Below are positions 2,663 through 10,052 of a stretch of DNA of 44,984 nucleotides, piece after piece. The DNA comes from a bacterium (GTDB lineage Bacteria; Acidobacteriota; Thermoanaerobaculia; Multivoradales; JAHEKO01). The position numbers and the translations under genes were made by a program. Within the stretch, counting starts at the first letter, position 1. Every line of letters begins with the position of its first letter. Under the pieces are notes generated by a model that was not told the origin of the DNA, ran no database searches, and saw nothing but the letters and a program-made list of their open reading frames with translations. The stretch spans positions 1-44,984 of the forward strand of contig JAAENP010000477.1 of assembly GCA_024224155.1 (NCBI GenBank), read 5' to 3'.

Positions 2663-2684
2663 TTGCTTTCCCGAACCATAAGGA

Positions 2685-2714
2685 AGAGCCCCGGCCTTTT
2701 ACGGCCGGGGCTCT
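2685..2714 (-). terminator. Strong stem-loop terminator of the small RNA unit
   Basis: Twelve perfectly paired bases (2685-2696 with 2703-2714, nearly all G/C) enclose a 6-nt loop. On the minus strand the stem is followed by CTTCCTTATGG, a weak U-rich tail; on the plus strand by CGTTGGTTTGTTT. It ends the unit that starts near 2960 and separates it from the hybrid kinase. The stem is symmetric and may work in both directions. Confidence 0.75.
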
Positions 2715-2793
2715 CGTTGGTTTGTTTGGGTGGCGTTGGGTTTCCCCTTGCTCGGGGTCACCTCCAGTGCGCCACGGCGCTTTGGAGTGCCCT

Positions 2794-2838
2794 CTAAGAG
2801 GACGCCACCTCCATCAAACCGCGTTTATCAATTTCCAC
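2794..2838 (-). CDS. 14-residue micro-ORF with near-perfect Shine-Dalgarno
   Basis: GTG at 2838 opens MEIDKRGLMEVASS and ends at TAG (2794-2796). The start is preceded at short spacing by AAAGGAGGTGGTCCA, which matches the complement of the 16S rRNA 3' tail almost completely and is much stronger than any other ribosome site in this window. The peptide has no membrane segment, no run of one regulatory amino acid and no cysteine. The function is unknown. The site strength suggests the ORF is really translated, either for the peptide itself or to let ribosome occupancy control the downstream fold (see the overlapping ncRNA entry). Confidence 0.5.
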   Translation of the reverse strand: MEIDKRGLMEVASS

Positions 2839-2964
2839 TGGACCACCTCCTTTCTGGGCGTATCCACAAATTGGCGGGACCCAACCCGCCCGGCCCTACC
2901 AGCCGCCCAAGCCTAGAGGGCCGCCGCGATACGATCCTGAGAACGTTCGCAGACACGATGCCTT

Positions 2965-2993
2965 ATGTTGCAGAAAGTCTGGCGGCTTGTCAA
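2965..2993 (-). promoter_or_regulatory. Candidate promoter of the micro-ORF / small RNA unit
   Basis: A consensus TTGACA (2993-2988, minus strand) is followed after 17 bp by CAACAT (2970-2965), which overlaps CATAAG. The -35 box is perfect and the -10 box weak. Transcription would start near 2958 and end at the 2685-2714 hairpin, giving an RNA of about 270 nt that includes the micro-ORF. It lies just downstream of the aminotransferase stop at 3032. Confidence 0.45.
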
Positions 2994-6626: not shown

Positions 6627-8165
6627 ATGAGCGATCCTACAGCCACGACCTCGATACTGCTGTATCTCGTTGCCGAAACGGTTCTGGTCGCCGCCATCAC
6701 CTTCGGCCTCTTCCGGTTTCGCCGCCGCGTCGGACTGGGTCCACTACTCGTGCTCCTGGGTTCGAACCAGGTGCTCAGCGTCATCCTGGCCACGAGCATC
6801 TACTACCGGCTCACGCCGACGCTGCTCGTCTCGCCCGGATCGGCGGTGCTCTTTACCGGCGTTGTCGCCACAGCGCTCCTTGTCTATCTTCGCGAGGACA
6901 TCCCAAAGACCCGAATGCTCATCTTCGGCCTGGTCGGCGTGAATTTCGCTCTCGCCGCATTGCTCTGGATCACCGGGTGGCAGATGACCCGCCTTCCGAC
7001 CATGAACCTACTCGAGATTCCGACCGCGGTGTTTCTGGTCAATCCCCGTCCGTTCGCCGCCGGCACTCTGGCGCTGCTGCTCGACCTTTTCCTGATCGTC
7101 ATCGTGTACGAGTTCATGCGCCAGTCTCTCGCGGGGCTGCCACGCTTCATGCGCCTGGTCGTAGCGCTGGAAACGGTGCTTGTCATCGACGCATTCGTCT
7201 TCACGCTGGGCGCTTTTCTGGGAACCGGCCGAGTTGCTGAGATCCTGGCCGGCCAGCTGGTCGGAAAGCTGCTATTCGGCCTGATCTGGGCGACCTTGTT
7301 ATGGGCATACCTCCGCCTGGCCGAGCCTGACGTCGAACCTGGCATGCAGGAAACCGGTGGCTTCGCCGTGCTTTCCATTCTCACCTATCGTGAACGTTAC
7401 GAGATAGTCAGGGAGCAGCTCGAGGTCGAGCGCGCCGCGAATCTGGCCAAGAGCCGCTTCCTGGCTCACATGAGCCACGAGCTGCGAACGCCTCTCAACG
7501 CGGTCATCGGCTTCACCAGCCTTCTGCTGTCCCCGTCGGCTCCCAGCGATTCATCCAAAGCGCGGATCTATCTCGAACGCGTCGCCGCCAACGGCCGTCA
7601 CCTCCTGCATCTGATCAATGGCATTCTCGACCTCTCCAAGATCGAGGCGGGGAGGATCGAGCTCGATCTTCAACCGGTTACGGCGAACCAGCTGGTTTCG
7701 GAAACCGTCGACCAAGTACGCAGCCAAGCGGTGGCTAAGAAGATCCGTCTGGAGACCGATCTGCCCGACTCTCCGGTCCAGCTCGTCACCGATGTAGTCC
7801 GGCTCAAGCAGATAATCTTCAACCTCGTCGGCAACGCCATCAAGTTCACCGACGAAGGCGGTGTCACGGTGAGGCTTCTCGAGGCGGGCGTCAAGCACCC
7901 GGTTCGGCTCGAGGTCGCCGACACCGGAATCGGCATCCCGACTGATAAACTCGATTCTGTTTTCGACGCATTCACTCAAGCCGAGTCCGGCACGAGTCGC
8001 CGCTTTCAGGGCACGGGCCTCGGTCTTGCCATCTCGCGGGCGCTTTGTGGCCAACTCGGCTACGAGATCGAAGTCGAGAGCAACGCCGGCGGCGGCACGA
8101 CTTTTCGCGTTTTCGTACACCAGACCGGGGAACTTGCACAAACCTCGAGACAAGAGCTAGGTTGA
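6627..8165 (+). CDS. Membrane-bound sensor histidine kinase
   Basis: 512 residues. The first ~230 form a polytopic sensor with about seven membrane helices (for example 9-29, 39-58, 71-87, 97-116, 142-162, 176-197, 208-229). A short coiled linker at about 255-275 follows, then HisKA with H-box MSHELRTPLN (H284) and HATPase_c with N-box NLVGNAIKFT, G1 DTGIGIP and G2 GTGLGLA. There is no receiver domain, so phosphate must go to a separate regulator. The REC-HATPase protein encoded at 10049-10942 is a nearby but unproven candidate. I do not recognise the membrane domain as a named sensor family. GGGAAG precedes the ATG. The acyl-CoA reductase gene begins 18 nt after the stop, so they are probably co-transcribed. 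Confidence 0.92.
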   Translation: MSDPTATTSILLYLVAETVLVAAITFGLFRFRRRVGLGPLLVLLGSNQVLSVILATSIYYRLTPTLLVSPGSAVLFTGVVATALLVYLREDIPKTRMLIFGLVGVNFALAALLWITGWQMTRLPTMNLLEIPTAVFLVNPRPFAAGTLALLLDLFLIVIVYEFMRQSLAGLPRFMRLVVALETVLVIDAFVFTLGAFLGTGRVAEILAGQLVGKLLFGLIWATLLWAYLRLAEPDVEPGMQETGGFAVLSILTYRERYEIVREQLEVERAANLAKSRFLAHMSHELRTPLNAVIGFTSLLLSPSAPSDSSKARIYLERVAANGRHLLHLINGILDLSKIEAGRIELDLQPVTANQLVSETVDQVRSQAVAKKIRLETDLPDSPVQLVTDVVRLKQIIFNLVGNAIKFTDEGGVTVRLLEAGVKHPVRLEVADTGIGIPTDKLDSVFDAFTQAESGTSRRFQGTGLGLAISRALCGQLGYEIEVESNAGGGTTFRVFVHQTGELAQTSRQELG

Positions 8166-8183: not shown

Positions 8184-10052
8184 ATGACAGACCCCACACC
8201 CCAGGAGCGCCCGGCCGAGATGTCTCCGGCTCGGTACATCGAGAAAGTCAGCCTGGCCACCGGCGAAGTCCTCGAAGACGATTTCGAGCCCCGGCGGCTA
8301 CTGGTCCACAGCCATCGCGACTATCACCTGGTCGACGTCCAGGCCCGCTTCATGATGAGCCGAATCATCAAGGCTACCGGTGACGAGAATTTGGCGCGCA
8401 AGAAGATGAAGGAAATGCGCCGGCTCGGACACCGCACCTCGCGCGCATTGGCCAGGATGATCGGCCATAGGGACCCGAAAAAACTGGCACGCACACTCTT
8501 CGGCCTCAAGGATCGCGAGTACTATTTCCGCTACAAGCGCCACGGTTTCTCGCGCGACGACATCGAGTCACGGCTGGCCAAACTCAAGGACCAGGCTCGA
8601 GAGCAGCTCGAGGCCACCCGCAAGGAAGGTCACCTGAACCTGCGGGTCCTGCTCACGGGCGGCACCGGTTTCGTCGGCAAGGAGATTCTCTGGCAGGCCG
8701 CCCACGACCCCGAGATCGCCGAAGTCGTCGTCGTCATCCGTCCCAAAGTGATTCGCGACCGCAAGACCAAGGAGATCATCGAGACCCTGTCACCGGCGGA
8801 GCGCGGCCGGCGCTTGCTCAAGGAGCTCTGGCTGTCCGAAAGCGAGTCGGCCGGGAAGTTCCGCTTCGTTGCCGGCGACGTCGAGCAGCCCGACCTGGGC
8901 ATCGCCGCCGAGGAACTGGACGCGCTACGGACCACTTTGACTCATGTCATTCACTGCGCCGCCAGCGTCGCCTTCGACGACCCCTACGAGAAGTCATTCC
9001 GCGCTAACGTCACCGGCACGCTCAATGCCCTCGAGTTCTCTCACGGCCTGCAATCAGCTCCAGAGGGTCCGTTTGTCGCCCACGTCGGAATCGAGACTTC
9101 ATACATTCATGGCCGCCAGACCAAGGAACCGGCGCTCGAAGACGAGATCGTCTTTCCGCGGAACTTCTACAACAACTACTACGAGCTCACCAAGGCGATG
9201 GCCTCGATCGAGACCGAGCGTTTCATGCTCGACCGGGGACTTCGCGTGGGCCAGCTCTGTCCCGCCATCGTGATCGGCGAATCGCGCGCCGGCAACAACC
9301 GCGGCGACACCAAGGTCGTCAACGCCCCGGTCAACGTGTTCGGGCGAGCCAGGCAGGCGCTGTCGCCCACCAGCGGAAGATGGCGCGACCGCTCCAAAGC
9401 CGCGGCCATCGCTCGACTGGCGTGCGTTTTCCCGGGCGATCCCTCGGCACAGATCAACCTGATCCCAGTCGATCGCGTGGTCCAAGGGATCATCGCGTCG
9501 CTCAAGAAGGCCGAGGCCGTGGGCGAGCGCGTACACCTCGCTACAGACACCCGCGTTACGTCTCATCAGATCAAAACGATCGTCGCCGAAGAGCTGGACG
9601 TGGAGATCAAGCTCGCCGAGCCCACCATTCATCGCACGGTCACGCTGCCGCTCCTGACCAAGGTACTCACGCGCGTCGGCCAGGGCCGGACGGCGAGTGC
9701 GCTCGAGAAACTCGGCGGCATTTTTTCCGGCTACAGCGAATGGGGCCAGCCGATCCACGAGGTCGGCAAGGACGTCGAGGTACTCGGCCTGTCACCCGAA
9801 CGGCCAAGTGCCGAACACTCGTTCCGCATGCTTTGCCGACACAACAAGTGGGTGCAGAACTTCGGCCAGCTCAAGGACTCAGAAGAGATCTCACGGCGCG
9901 AGAAAGTCTGGTGGGATTTTGTGGTTGGACTGGAGCAGCGGCTTGCCAAGCCCGCCGGAGCCCTCACGGGTGCCGACTTCCGCGCGGCTCTGGAATCGAA
10001 CCTGGACACCGAGGCCTTCGTGCTCAAGCCGGCCGACCAGGCCGGAGCCTAG
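8184..10052 (+). CDS. Fatty acyl-CoA reductase-like SDR (NAD-binding 4 / male-sterility type)
   Basis: 622 residues. An extended SDR Rossmann domain starts near 150: GGTGFVG at 159-165 binds NAD(P), and the catalytic pair Y333/K337 sits in NYYELTKAM. Downstream segments (PAIVIGES, NLIPVDRVV) fit thioester/fatty-acyl reductases, which turn acyl-CoA or acyl-ACP into aldehyde or alcohol. The first ~148 residues are a basic helical extension (RKKMKEMRRLG, KRHGFSRDD) that I do not recognise; it may bind partners or substrate. There is no signal peptide, so the enzyme is cytoplasmic. GGAG lies 6 nt before the ATG. Its TAG stop overlaps the TAG stop of the convergent REC-HATPase gene. The substrate is not readable; storage-lipid or wax chemistry is possible. 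Confidence 0.8.
   Translation: MTDPTPQERPAEMSPARYIEKVSLATGEVLEDDFEPRRLLVHSHRDYHLVDVQARFMMSRIIKATGDENLARKKMKEMRRLGHRTSRALARMIGHRDPKKLARTLFGLKDREYYFRYKRHGFSRDDIESRLAKLKDQAREQLEATRKEGHLNLRVLLTGGTGFVGKEILWQAAHDPEIAEVVVVIRPKVIRDRKTKEIIETLSPAERGRRLLKELWLSESESAGKFRFVAGDVEQPDLGIAAEELDALRTTLTHVIHCAASVAFDDPYEKSFRANVTGTLNALEFSHGLQSAPEGPFVAHVGIETSYIHGRQTKEPALEDEIVFPRNFYNNYYELTKAMASIETERFMLDRGLRVGQLCPAIVIGESRAGNNRGDTKVVNAPVNVFGRARQALSPTSGRWRDRSKAAAIARLACVFPGDPSAQINLIPVDRVVQGIIASLKKAEAVGERVHLATDTRVTSHQIKTIVAEELDVEIKLAEPTIHRTVTLPLLTKVLTRVGQGRTASALEKLGGIFSGYSEWGQPIHEVGKDVEVLGLSPERPSAEHSFRMLCRHNKWVQNFGQLKDSEEISRREKVWWDFVVGLEQRLAKPAGALTGADFRAALESNLDTEAFVLKPADQAGA

Follow-up and report, generated by a model that had tools for sequence, protein, structure and literature searches.

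A structured acidobacteriotal RNA with a micro-ORF and full complementarity to the 16S rRNA tail

Described RNAs closest to the window locus

In rnTrpL/peTrpL and SgrS, a small translated ORF lies inside a regulatory RNA, and ribosome passage remodels the fold. CC2171 (RF01867), an sRNA family of Caulobacter and other Alphaproteobacteria, reportedly stems from a 2008 paper on Caulobacter sRNAs. According to passages in the respective papers, the CC2171 of Mesorhizobium huakuii is MH_s33, whose sequenced product is 215 nt long (PMC5596092), and the family is among those improved with R-scape in Rfam 15 (PMC11701678). Ms_IGR-5 (RF02471), described for Actinobacteria, is reported as validated by RNA-seq in Streptomyces lividans (PMC8079986); in S. 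avermitilis, two sRNA units are reported to match Rfam, and Ms_IGR-5 is one of them (PMC8780764). Ribo-seq of Mycobacterium abscessus and M. smegmatis is reported to have given significant ribosomal reads on Ms_IGR-5 homologues, with the warning that most known E. coli non-coding RNAs show footprints too (PMC4974804). For Staphylococcus aureus ribosomes, two extra pairs upstream of CCUCC have been described, where a G-U pair restores function (PMC13009471). In the literature searched, which was mostly judged from titles and had most subscription journals outside its scope, we found no description of a 16S-tail complement or micro-ORF of such RNAs, and for CC2171 no published ORF or 16S complementarity.

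The window is the whole stretch of DNA that was analysed, the 44,984-nt contig JAAENP010000477.1 of an acidobacteriotal genome (GCA_024224155.1). Its minus strand encodes a putative RNA that is autonomous and structured and probably translated. A sequence-only reading had described here a small transcription unit with a micro-ORF. The feature is real and larger than described. That description lacked the conserved 5' domain at 2952-2855, the GGTTTG/CAAACC extension of the long-range helix and the near-perfect complementarity of the SD to the whole 16S tail. We take the full complementarity to the 16S rRNA tail as the central feature of the RNA. As in rnTrpL/peTrpL and SgrS, a small ORF lies within a candidate regulatory RNA; unlike these, the window RNA has neither a conserved downstream gene nor a sign of peptide selection in codons 2-9, and it has the full 16S-tail complementarity. 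As in the S. aureus case, the RNA would pair with 16S rRNA upstream of CCUCC by a GUG start, and G-U can replace A-U; whereas that case concerns two extra pairs on ordinary mRNAs, the window family has 14 constrained nucleotides, and up to 19, in a stand-alone structured RNA (PMC13009471). The best explanation, which we consider probable on balance, is an autonomous, structured and translated sRNA of ~280 nt that is gated by the ribosome and acts in trans through its RNA and not through its peptide. The features of the locus are as follows.

2965-2993, minus strand: promoter with -35 TTGACA (2993-2988), a 17-bp spacer and a weak -10 CAACAT (2970-2965); RNA start placed near 2957 from sequence and conservation
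2924-2952, minus strand: hairpin P0, CTGCGA (2952-2947) with TCGCGG (2929-2924); by eye, relatives have CCGCA/TGCGG, CCACG/CGTGG and other variants
2891-2923, minus strand: hairpin P1, CGGCCC (2923-2918) with GGGCCG (2896-2891); changes on both sides in five of six pairs
2855-2909, minus strand: pseudoknot, P1 loop TGGGCG (2909-2904) with CGCCCA (2860-2855); 94.2% of cells paired, two of six pairs changed from GC to AU on both sides
2873-2890, minus strand: hairpin P2, GGCGGG (2890-2885) with CCCGCC (2878-2873); changes on both sides in three of six pairs
2840-2865, minus strand: alternative SD-hiding hairpin, GGATACGCCC with GGTGGTCC, mutually exclusive with the pseudoknot (MFE and RNAalifold)
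2837-2855, minus strand: 16S-tail complement that doubles as the SD for the micro-ORF; 19 consecutive pairs, two of them G-U, judged from the 16S tail of four relatives and substitutions in 41 loci
2794-2838, minus strand: micro-ORF with GTG start, 14 codons (VEIDKRGLMEVASS) and UAG stop; 40 of 41 loci retain its start, frame and stop
2806-2812, minus strand: second SD-like motif GGAGGTG, inside the ORF and partly in P3; GAGGTG in 40 of 40 in-frame loci
2719-2820, minus strand: long-range helix P3, GGTTTG (2820-2815) with CAAACC (2724-2719) and GGTGGCG (2809-2803) with CGCCACC (2735-2729)
2791-2801, minus strand: hairpin P4 around the stop codon, CCTC-TTA-GAGG; 79.3% of cells paired, changes on both sides in one of four pairs
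2741-2790, minus strand: hairpins P5 and P6, enclosed by P3 (MFE fold); they align poorly among relatives and stand outside the counts
2681-2715, minus strand: intrinsic terminator, a GC stem followed by CTCTTCCTT; changes on both sides in 11 of 12 pairs

Promoter, fold and covariation

The promoter proposed by the sequence-only reading is present, and its -35 element is conserved. Of the 26 loci, 22 have TTGACA and 25 have TTGACA/T; when the same 150-nt stretches were shuffled by mononucleotide, TTGACA appeared in 11 of 520 shuffles. The -35 element lies 135-154 nt ahead of the SD motif in 24 of these 25 loci (176 nt in L023). Because the promoter position is conserved, the RNA includes ~100 nt ahead of the SD that had been missed. 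The GC terminator stem is also present as proposed and covaries. The independent transcription unit is supported. The fold of 2860-2683 has a free energy of -86.6 kcal/mol (z -6.35 against dinucleotide shuffles, none of 200 as good). Comparison among the loci shows a putative promoter and terminator of its own, conserved folds on either side of the SD, and changing neighbours.

Compensatory changes were counted in an alignment of 23 loci (A2) over seven helices, namely, P1, the pseudoknot, P2, P3b, P3a, P4 and the terminator; L019-L021, whose 3' part aligned badly, were excluded from this alignment and from that of the core (A3). Changes on both sides occur in 26 of the 47 pairs compared with 13.5 in shuffled alignments, although the counted structure was derived from the very sequences tested, which somewhat favours structure. 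In A2, 91.8% of cells are paired (86.4% shuffled) and the covariation score is 0.293 (0.186 shuffled, and at most 0.150 when the partners are slid by 1-3 columns); none of 500 shuffles reached any of these measures. The terminator contributes 11 of the 26 pairs, P1 five, P2 and P3b three each, the pseudoknot two, and P3a and P4 one each. The long-range helix had been proposed to use the end of the ORF, as 2809-2803 with 2735-2729 does, and to enclose two hairpins, which the MFE fold also gives. P3a is paired in 100% of cells, with changes on both sides in one of seven pairs, and P3b in 87.7%, with three of six. P3a is nearly invariant, so its support comes from complete pairing more than from covariation. 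The core alone (A3, comprising P2, P3b, P3a and P4) retains seven pairs with changes on both sides compared with 2.5 in shuffles (0 of 500); 92.2% of its cells are paired compared with 90.6%, and its further pair types were matched by four of 500 shuffles. These compensatory changes support a predicted pseudoknotted 5' domain, the long-range helix and the terminator.

RNAalifold, a method unable to draw pseudoknots, pairs GGNNACGCCC with GGUGRUCC as a local hairpin. Over the 23 rows, the pseudoknot helix was estimated at -9.0 to -16.0 kcal/mol without loop cost, and the best fold of the hairpin stretch, which differs between rows, at -4.7 to -10.2 kcal/mol. When covariation was sought for the SD-hiding hairpin, the changes were one-sided and gave no confirmation. 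Because the hairpin and the pseudoknot both need CGCCC, their predicted competition for it is a possible switch of SD access.

The 16S-tail complement and the micro-ORF

The SD AGAAAGGAGGTGGTCC (2855-2840, minus strand) precedes the 14-codon GTG ORF (2838-2794), as the sequence-only reading had it. A pattern search did not find an assembled 16S 3' end in the window's own genome. The end is present in four of 40 genomes, with the same sequence, GGCTGGATCACCTCCTTTCT, in each. The window RNA can pair with an unbroken run of 19 16S nucleotides, GCUGGAUCACCUCCUUUCU, and the pairing stops where AAGGG follows. In 16S rRNA, this stretch is the single strand after helix 45, up to the mature end. The predicted 18-nt duplex with the 16S tail has an energy of -32.0 kcal/mol, compared with -11.6 kcal/mol for a made-up ordinary AGGAGG site.

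Substitutions were examined in 41 loci, which comprise 24 from the DNA search of 40 genomes, 14 from the search of the phylum with the covariance model R1 (below) and three named ones, and which are the 43 rows at E < 1e-5 after removal of the L020 near copies L169 and L172; L048, L054, L062 and L040 were scanned yet stand outside this set. At positions 3-16 of AGAAAGGAGGTGATCCAG, the only changes are A>G (positions 3, 4, 5, 8 and 13) or C>T (15 and 16), all of which keep a G-U pair, and G6, G7, G9, G10, T11, G12 and T14 are invariant. If positions were equal, the chance that all seven variable positions coincide with the wobble-capable ones is 1 in 3432; outside the core SD (11-16), the split is three of three against none of three positions (chance 1 in 20). 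Positions 1, 2, 17 and 18 carry 18 non-pairing changes (A>T nine; G>A, G>C and G>T three each), so the constraint spans ~14 nt. This comparison is biased to some degree: the stretch that best matched the complement was used as the site of a locus, and the exact motif had served to find the three named loci; all 41 were found via similarity to the motif-bearing core. Part of the conservation is what any good SD shows. The comparison shows apparent selection on 16S-tail pairing beyond an ordinary SD. In 15 genomes searched with up to two mismatches, the 18-mer has 17 sites, of which 12 are this RNA, one is 16S antisense and four are others with two mismatches each; the reversed 18-mer pattern has nine sites. 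The RNA is single copy in the genomes checked.

This complementarity bears on two other explanations. Over 17-18 nt, the motif is identical to the reverse-complemented 16S 3' end, as an antisense 16S fragment or an assembly error would give. However, the similarity ends at the tail, the flanks are an unrelated covarying RNA, and the loci occur in many genomes, including isolates such as Bosea and Paracoccus. We therefore rejected an antisense fragment, and an artefact of either kind is most improbable. Alternatively, the RNA might mainly mask the 16S tail of idle 30S subunits as a non-translational decoy or cap (a hibernation-type factor), with the ORF incidental. A complementarity that spans the whole tail and ends where the precursor sequence after TTTCT begins is in line with such a decoy, as is the predicted duplex energy. 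The frame and the stop position are strictly kept, though, which is needless for a pure decoy, and we consider this explanation unlikely.

The micro-ORF is kept in 40 of the 41 loci. The sequence-only reading had named the absence of compensatory base changes and of ORF conservation among relatives as refuting; both are present. Their start codons (GTG 34, TTG four, ATG two) are in frame with GAGGTG, and the stop lies exactly five codons past GAG; the ORFs have 13 (four loci), 14 (34) or 15 (two) codons. Two loci with an ATG displaced by three bases retain the frame. The exception is L099, where the GTG frame differs and a nearby ATG opens a frame ending in SEVASSD. The stops are TAG in 28 loci and TAA in 12; TGA is never used, so all stops (2796-2794 in the window) are of the release factor 1 kind, which the P4 loop may explain. 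The surroundings of the internal GGAGGTG give a predicted duplex with the 16S tail of -17.5 kcal/mol.

A dual-function gene, in which the RNA fold does no more than adjust translation of a 14-residue peptide product, would account for the conserved start, frame and stop and for the almost constant EVA near the C-terminus, and the Ms_IGR-5 consensus likewise reads EVAAR-stop. The codons argue against it. The 34 ORFs with 14 codons gave 17 nearest-neighbour pairs, which have members in common, and in these pairs codons 2-9 differ by nine synonymous and 30 non-synonymous single changes, that is, 9/39 or 23% synonymous compared with 23.3% expected without selection. The other two frames gave 5/37 and 11/28, and the differences by codon position (22, 29 and 22) show no third-position excess. 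E and V are always GAG GTG (40/40) without synonymous change, as an RNA constraint from P3 and the SD-like motif would give. The near-constant EVA and S/A/T-S/P end overlie P3, the SD-like GGAGGTG and the 5' strand of P4; therefore, RNA constraint can explain them. The alphaproteobacterial forms (below) have unrelated peptides of 14, 18 and ~25 residues. We rejected a conserved peptide on the neutrality of codons 2-9, and a peptide product is left with a small chance. Because start, frame and stop are kept and codons 2-9 are neutral, translation appears to be selected and the peptide not; in these comparisons, evolution has seemingly kept the position of the tiny reading frame. The sequence-only interpretation hence stands in part: the independent unit, the structured RNA, the ORF end in the long-range helix and the lack of a fixed downstream target are retained, and the conserved small-protein family is dropped, its shared EVA-S C-terminus coinciding with paired, SD-like RNA.

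Data on likely relatives speak for the ribosome-gated sRNA that we favour: one CC2171 homologue has been detected by RNA-seq, and Ms_IGR-5 has both RNA-seq support and ribosome footprints. The footprints also make the decoy somewhat less likely. A mechanism for the gated sRNA can be outlined. The 5' pseudoknot and the local hairpin would compete for CGCCC and set whether the SD is open. An open tail site would capture a 30S subunit, which would then translate the micro-ORF. An 18-bp duplex reaching the start codon is not known to be compatible with ordinary initiation, so capture and translation would have to be separate steps. A ribosome at the stop codon would open the long-range helix P3 and free the 3' sequences, and it would also meet the second SD-like motif; the output would be the freed RNA or a held ribosome. 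With capture at the open tail site, translation of the ORF and opening of the helix at the stop, the RNA would report, or hold, free initiating ribosomes. Action in trans through the RNA is what we infer, and none of the results points to a trans target.

Distribution, neighbouring genes and related families

A DNA search found the interval in 26 of 40 genomes (its own included), from the same genus out to other families of the order; the other 14 genomes gave no match with the DNA query. A covariance model of the core (R1), built from 23 sequences with the window as founding member, was run on 198 genomes across the phylum and matched 31 at E <= 0.01. Twenty-two of these, including the window, are full-length at 56.9 bits or more, seven of them from the genus g11, whereas the remaining nine score at most 27.7 bits and may be chance. 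The window match is full-length, with the tail motif, micro-ORF and P3. New R1 loci include 14 outside g11 at 56.9-121.3 bits, and four new g11 genomes score 97.3-100 bits. The distribution is patchy: the genomes designated as the same class (10 listed) gave no R1 match, and G211, a near-complete g11 genome, is without one although seven other g11 genomes have the RNA.

In the window, a class IV aminotransferase gene lies upstream and a hybrid histidine kinase gene downstream, both on the strand of the RNA. The sequence-only reading had stated that after the micro-ORF no gene comes before the terminator, which holds up to that point; the kinase gene begins just after it. By ORF clustering, a histidine kinase gene is downstream in four of the 26 loci (L001, L002, L004 and L005), several loci ending soon after the RNA. 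Ten other loci were searched with Pfam, with the two longest ORFs downstream as queries. The families recovered were DUF5995 (opposite strand), CPSase (two loci), M48 peptidase, Tle1-like and molybdopterin-binding, and four of the ten loci (L003, L006, L017 and L022) gave no family. A conserved neighbour was rejected, as the downstream families differ among loci, which makes a cis target unlikely. These data bear on a cis-acting attenuator or leader, in which micro-ORF translation would decide read-through to the next gene. The kinase gene close after the terminator in the window, L002, L004 and L005 and an ArfB-like gene that follows in Rhodobacterales (L111) would suit it, but the next genes differ between relatives and the terminator is strong and covarying. 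An attenuator is improbable, less likely than the strongest rivals, the pure 30S decoy and the peptide product. Two plus-strand genes of the window were also noted: 6627-8165, near the RNA gene, encodes a histidine kinase whose N-terminal domain is VUPS (a vitamin-uptake-like sensor), and 8184-10052 encodes a thioester-reductase-like protein with an extra N-terminal part, whose NCBIfam matches all fall below the cut-offs.

The exact motif GAAAGGAGGTGRTCCWGTG occurs in at least 119 stretches of named genomes, of which 80 matches were listed and analysed. By title, which can mislead for MAGs, 68 of the matches listed are alphaproteobacterial, four are unspecified Proteobacteria, and eight are others (Gemmataceae, Phycisphaerales, Planctomycetaceae, Acidobacteria, Gemmatimonadota, Nitrospirae, Nitrosomonadales and one unnamed). 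Among the matches listed, 78 loci have enough sequence, and 68 of these carry a terminator-like site at 40-260 nt downstream, compared with 28 of 341 random windows from the same contigs. ORFs from GTG (73 among the matches listed) have 18 codons in 31 cases, 25 in 12 and 14 in 11. The 17-mer was found once in 10 of 11 such genomes and twice in the other. Among the matches listed, the 25-codon group (12 loci) has a long-range helix that joins the ORF interior to a strand immediately ahead of the terminator and has changes on both sides in seven of 27 pairs, and the Bradyrhizobium-type group (nine loci) likewise has one, with 12 of 50 pairs; the Rhodobacterales 18-codon group (34 loci) has a weak consensus of -15.9 kcal/mol without a long-range helix. 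L071, with a 57-codon ORF resembling a signal peptide, is perhaps an ordinary gene whose SD is strong. By eye, the RNA follows a YhhQ-like transporter gene in L111 (near 3777-3500, minus strand) and L041 (near 5002), and in L111 it precedes an ArfB-like ribosome-rescue gene, which would make arfB read-through an interesting special case. UpsM of Rhodobacter was rejected as the identity of the RNA; the Rhodobacterales loci sit between YhhQ-like and ArfB-like genes.

No Rfam family matched the window at the gathering threshold. In a scan of 16 motif loci at this threshold, four matched CC2171 (Rhizobium, Bosea, Brevundimonas and Falsiroseomonas) and one Ms_IGR-5 (L048), and the other 11 had no sRNA match at the motif. 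Full-length CC2171 matches below the cut-off were obtained for L041 (Rhodobacterales, 45.6), L073 (Bradyrhizobium, 41.7), L164 (31.3) and L040, L107, L054 and L062 (28.3-30.8); in a further scan of 16 loci, matches to either family at E <= 0.1 were confined to L164 and L115, the other 14 having none.

The window aligns to the full CC2171 model (1-159) at 33.9 bits, below the cut-off of 75; the scores in the genomes G000 and G001 are 33.9 and 31.4 bits. The 5' motif GAAAGGAGGUGAUCCAGUG, with which CC2171 opens, is present in the window with one A to G difference. The motif and the terminator align, and several model pairs are non-standard in the window. CC2171 also has a micro-ORF that starts with GTG (21-25 codons long in the four above-threshold loci), a terminator and, in the 25-codon group, long-range pairing, but its model has no 5' domain, and its ORF and helix sequences differ from those of the window.

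Against Ms_IGR-5, the window has no match at E <= 10 or E <= 1 and so stays below the cut-off of 45 bits; none of the 40 genomes has a match over the cut-off, two have weak matches elsewhere, and none of 14 control genomes has one. The Ms_IGR-5 consensus has GGAAGGAGGUGGUCC near its 5' end, a later CACCC and a GC terminator, and it reads GAG GUG GCU GCC CGC UAG, with the stop five codons past GAG and a start codon that is not visible. The window and 39 other loci keep the GAG GTG and the stop register of Ms_IGR-5, with GCN in 37 of 40. The Ms_IGR-5 model starts a few nucleotides before GGAAGG, whereas the ~100-nt 5' pseudoknot domain of the window has no counterpart in it. In named contigs first found by the tail motif, R1 scores 39.7 bits in the Nitrospirae MAG L115, 34.5 in L100 and 27.3 in the Planctomycetaceae contig L099. 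The Ms_IGR-5 and R1 scores are 39.7 and 34.5 bits for L100, 29.5 and 39.7 for L115, and 47.7 and 20.7 for L048. L100 and L115 match both models and thus form a bridge between the window family and Ms_IGR-5. Homology of the window RNA, CC2171 and Ms_IGR-5 appears likely from these alignments but is not proven; their likeness could instead come from the shared demands of a 16S-tail site. The Ms_IGR-5 match of L048 (2623-2818, minus strand) lies above the cut-off on a contig titled Acidobacteria, in a family described for Actinobacteria.

A broader and more tentative proposal, to which we give somewhat less than an even chance, is that CC2171, Ms_IGR-5 and the window RNA belong to one RNA class, present in several phyla, whose members bind the complete 16S rRNA tail and in which translation of a meaningless micro-ORF is the switch. 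Such an RNA would be a ribosome-availability sensor or a 30S-parking RNA, gated here by the pseudoknotted 5' domain, which possibly binds a ligand. If this is true, many bacteria have a dedicated RNA that addresses the ribosome itself via the full 16S tail, and translation serves as a mechanical switch instead of producing a peptide. It would offer a handle on how cells sense free 30S subunits, and the orphan sRNAs CC2171 of Caulobacter and Ms_IGR-5 of mycobacteria and Streptomyces would join one testable class. The RNAs would also probe how far 16S tail pairing extends upstream of CCUCC, a question recently raised for S. aureus (PMC13009471).

Other arrangements around the SD were seen in individual loci. 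In L099 (minus strand), GGGATCACCTTT, ~110 nt past the tail motif, is similar to the 16S tail, and the SD of this RNA could be its pairing partner. In L073 (near 7247-7320) and other Bradyrhizobium-type loci, CACCUC in the ORF imitates the 16S anti-SD and is able to pair with the SD of the same RNA, and the neighbouring CUCGCUGG has its partner far downstream; this would make a second, different switch of SD access.
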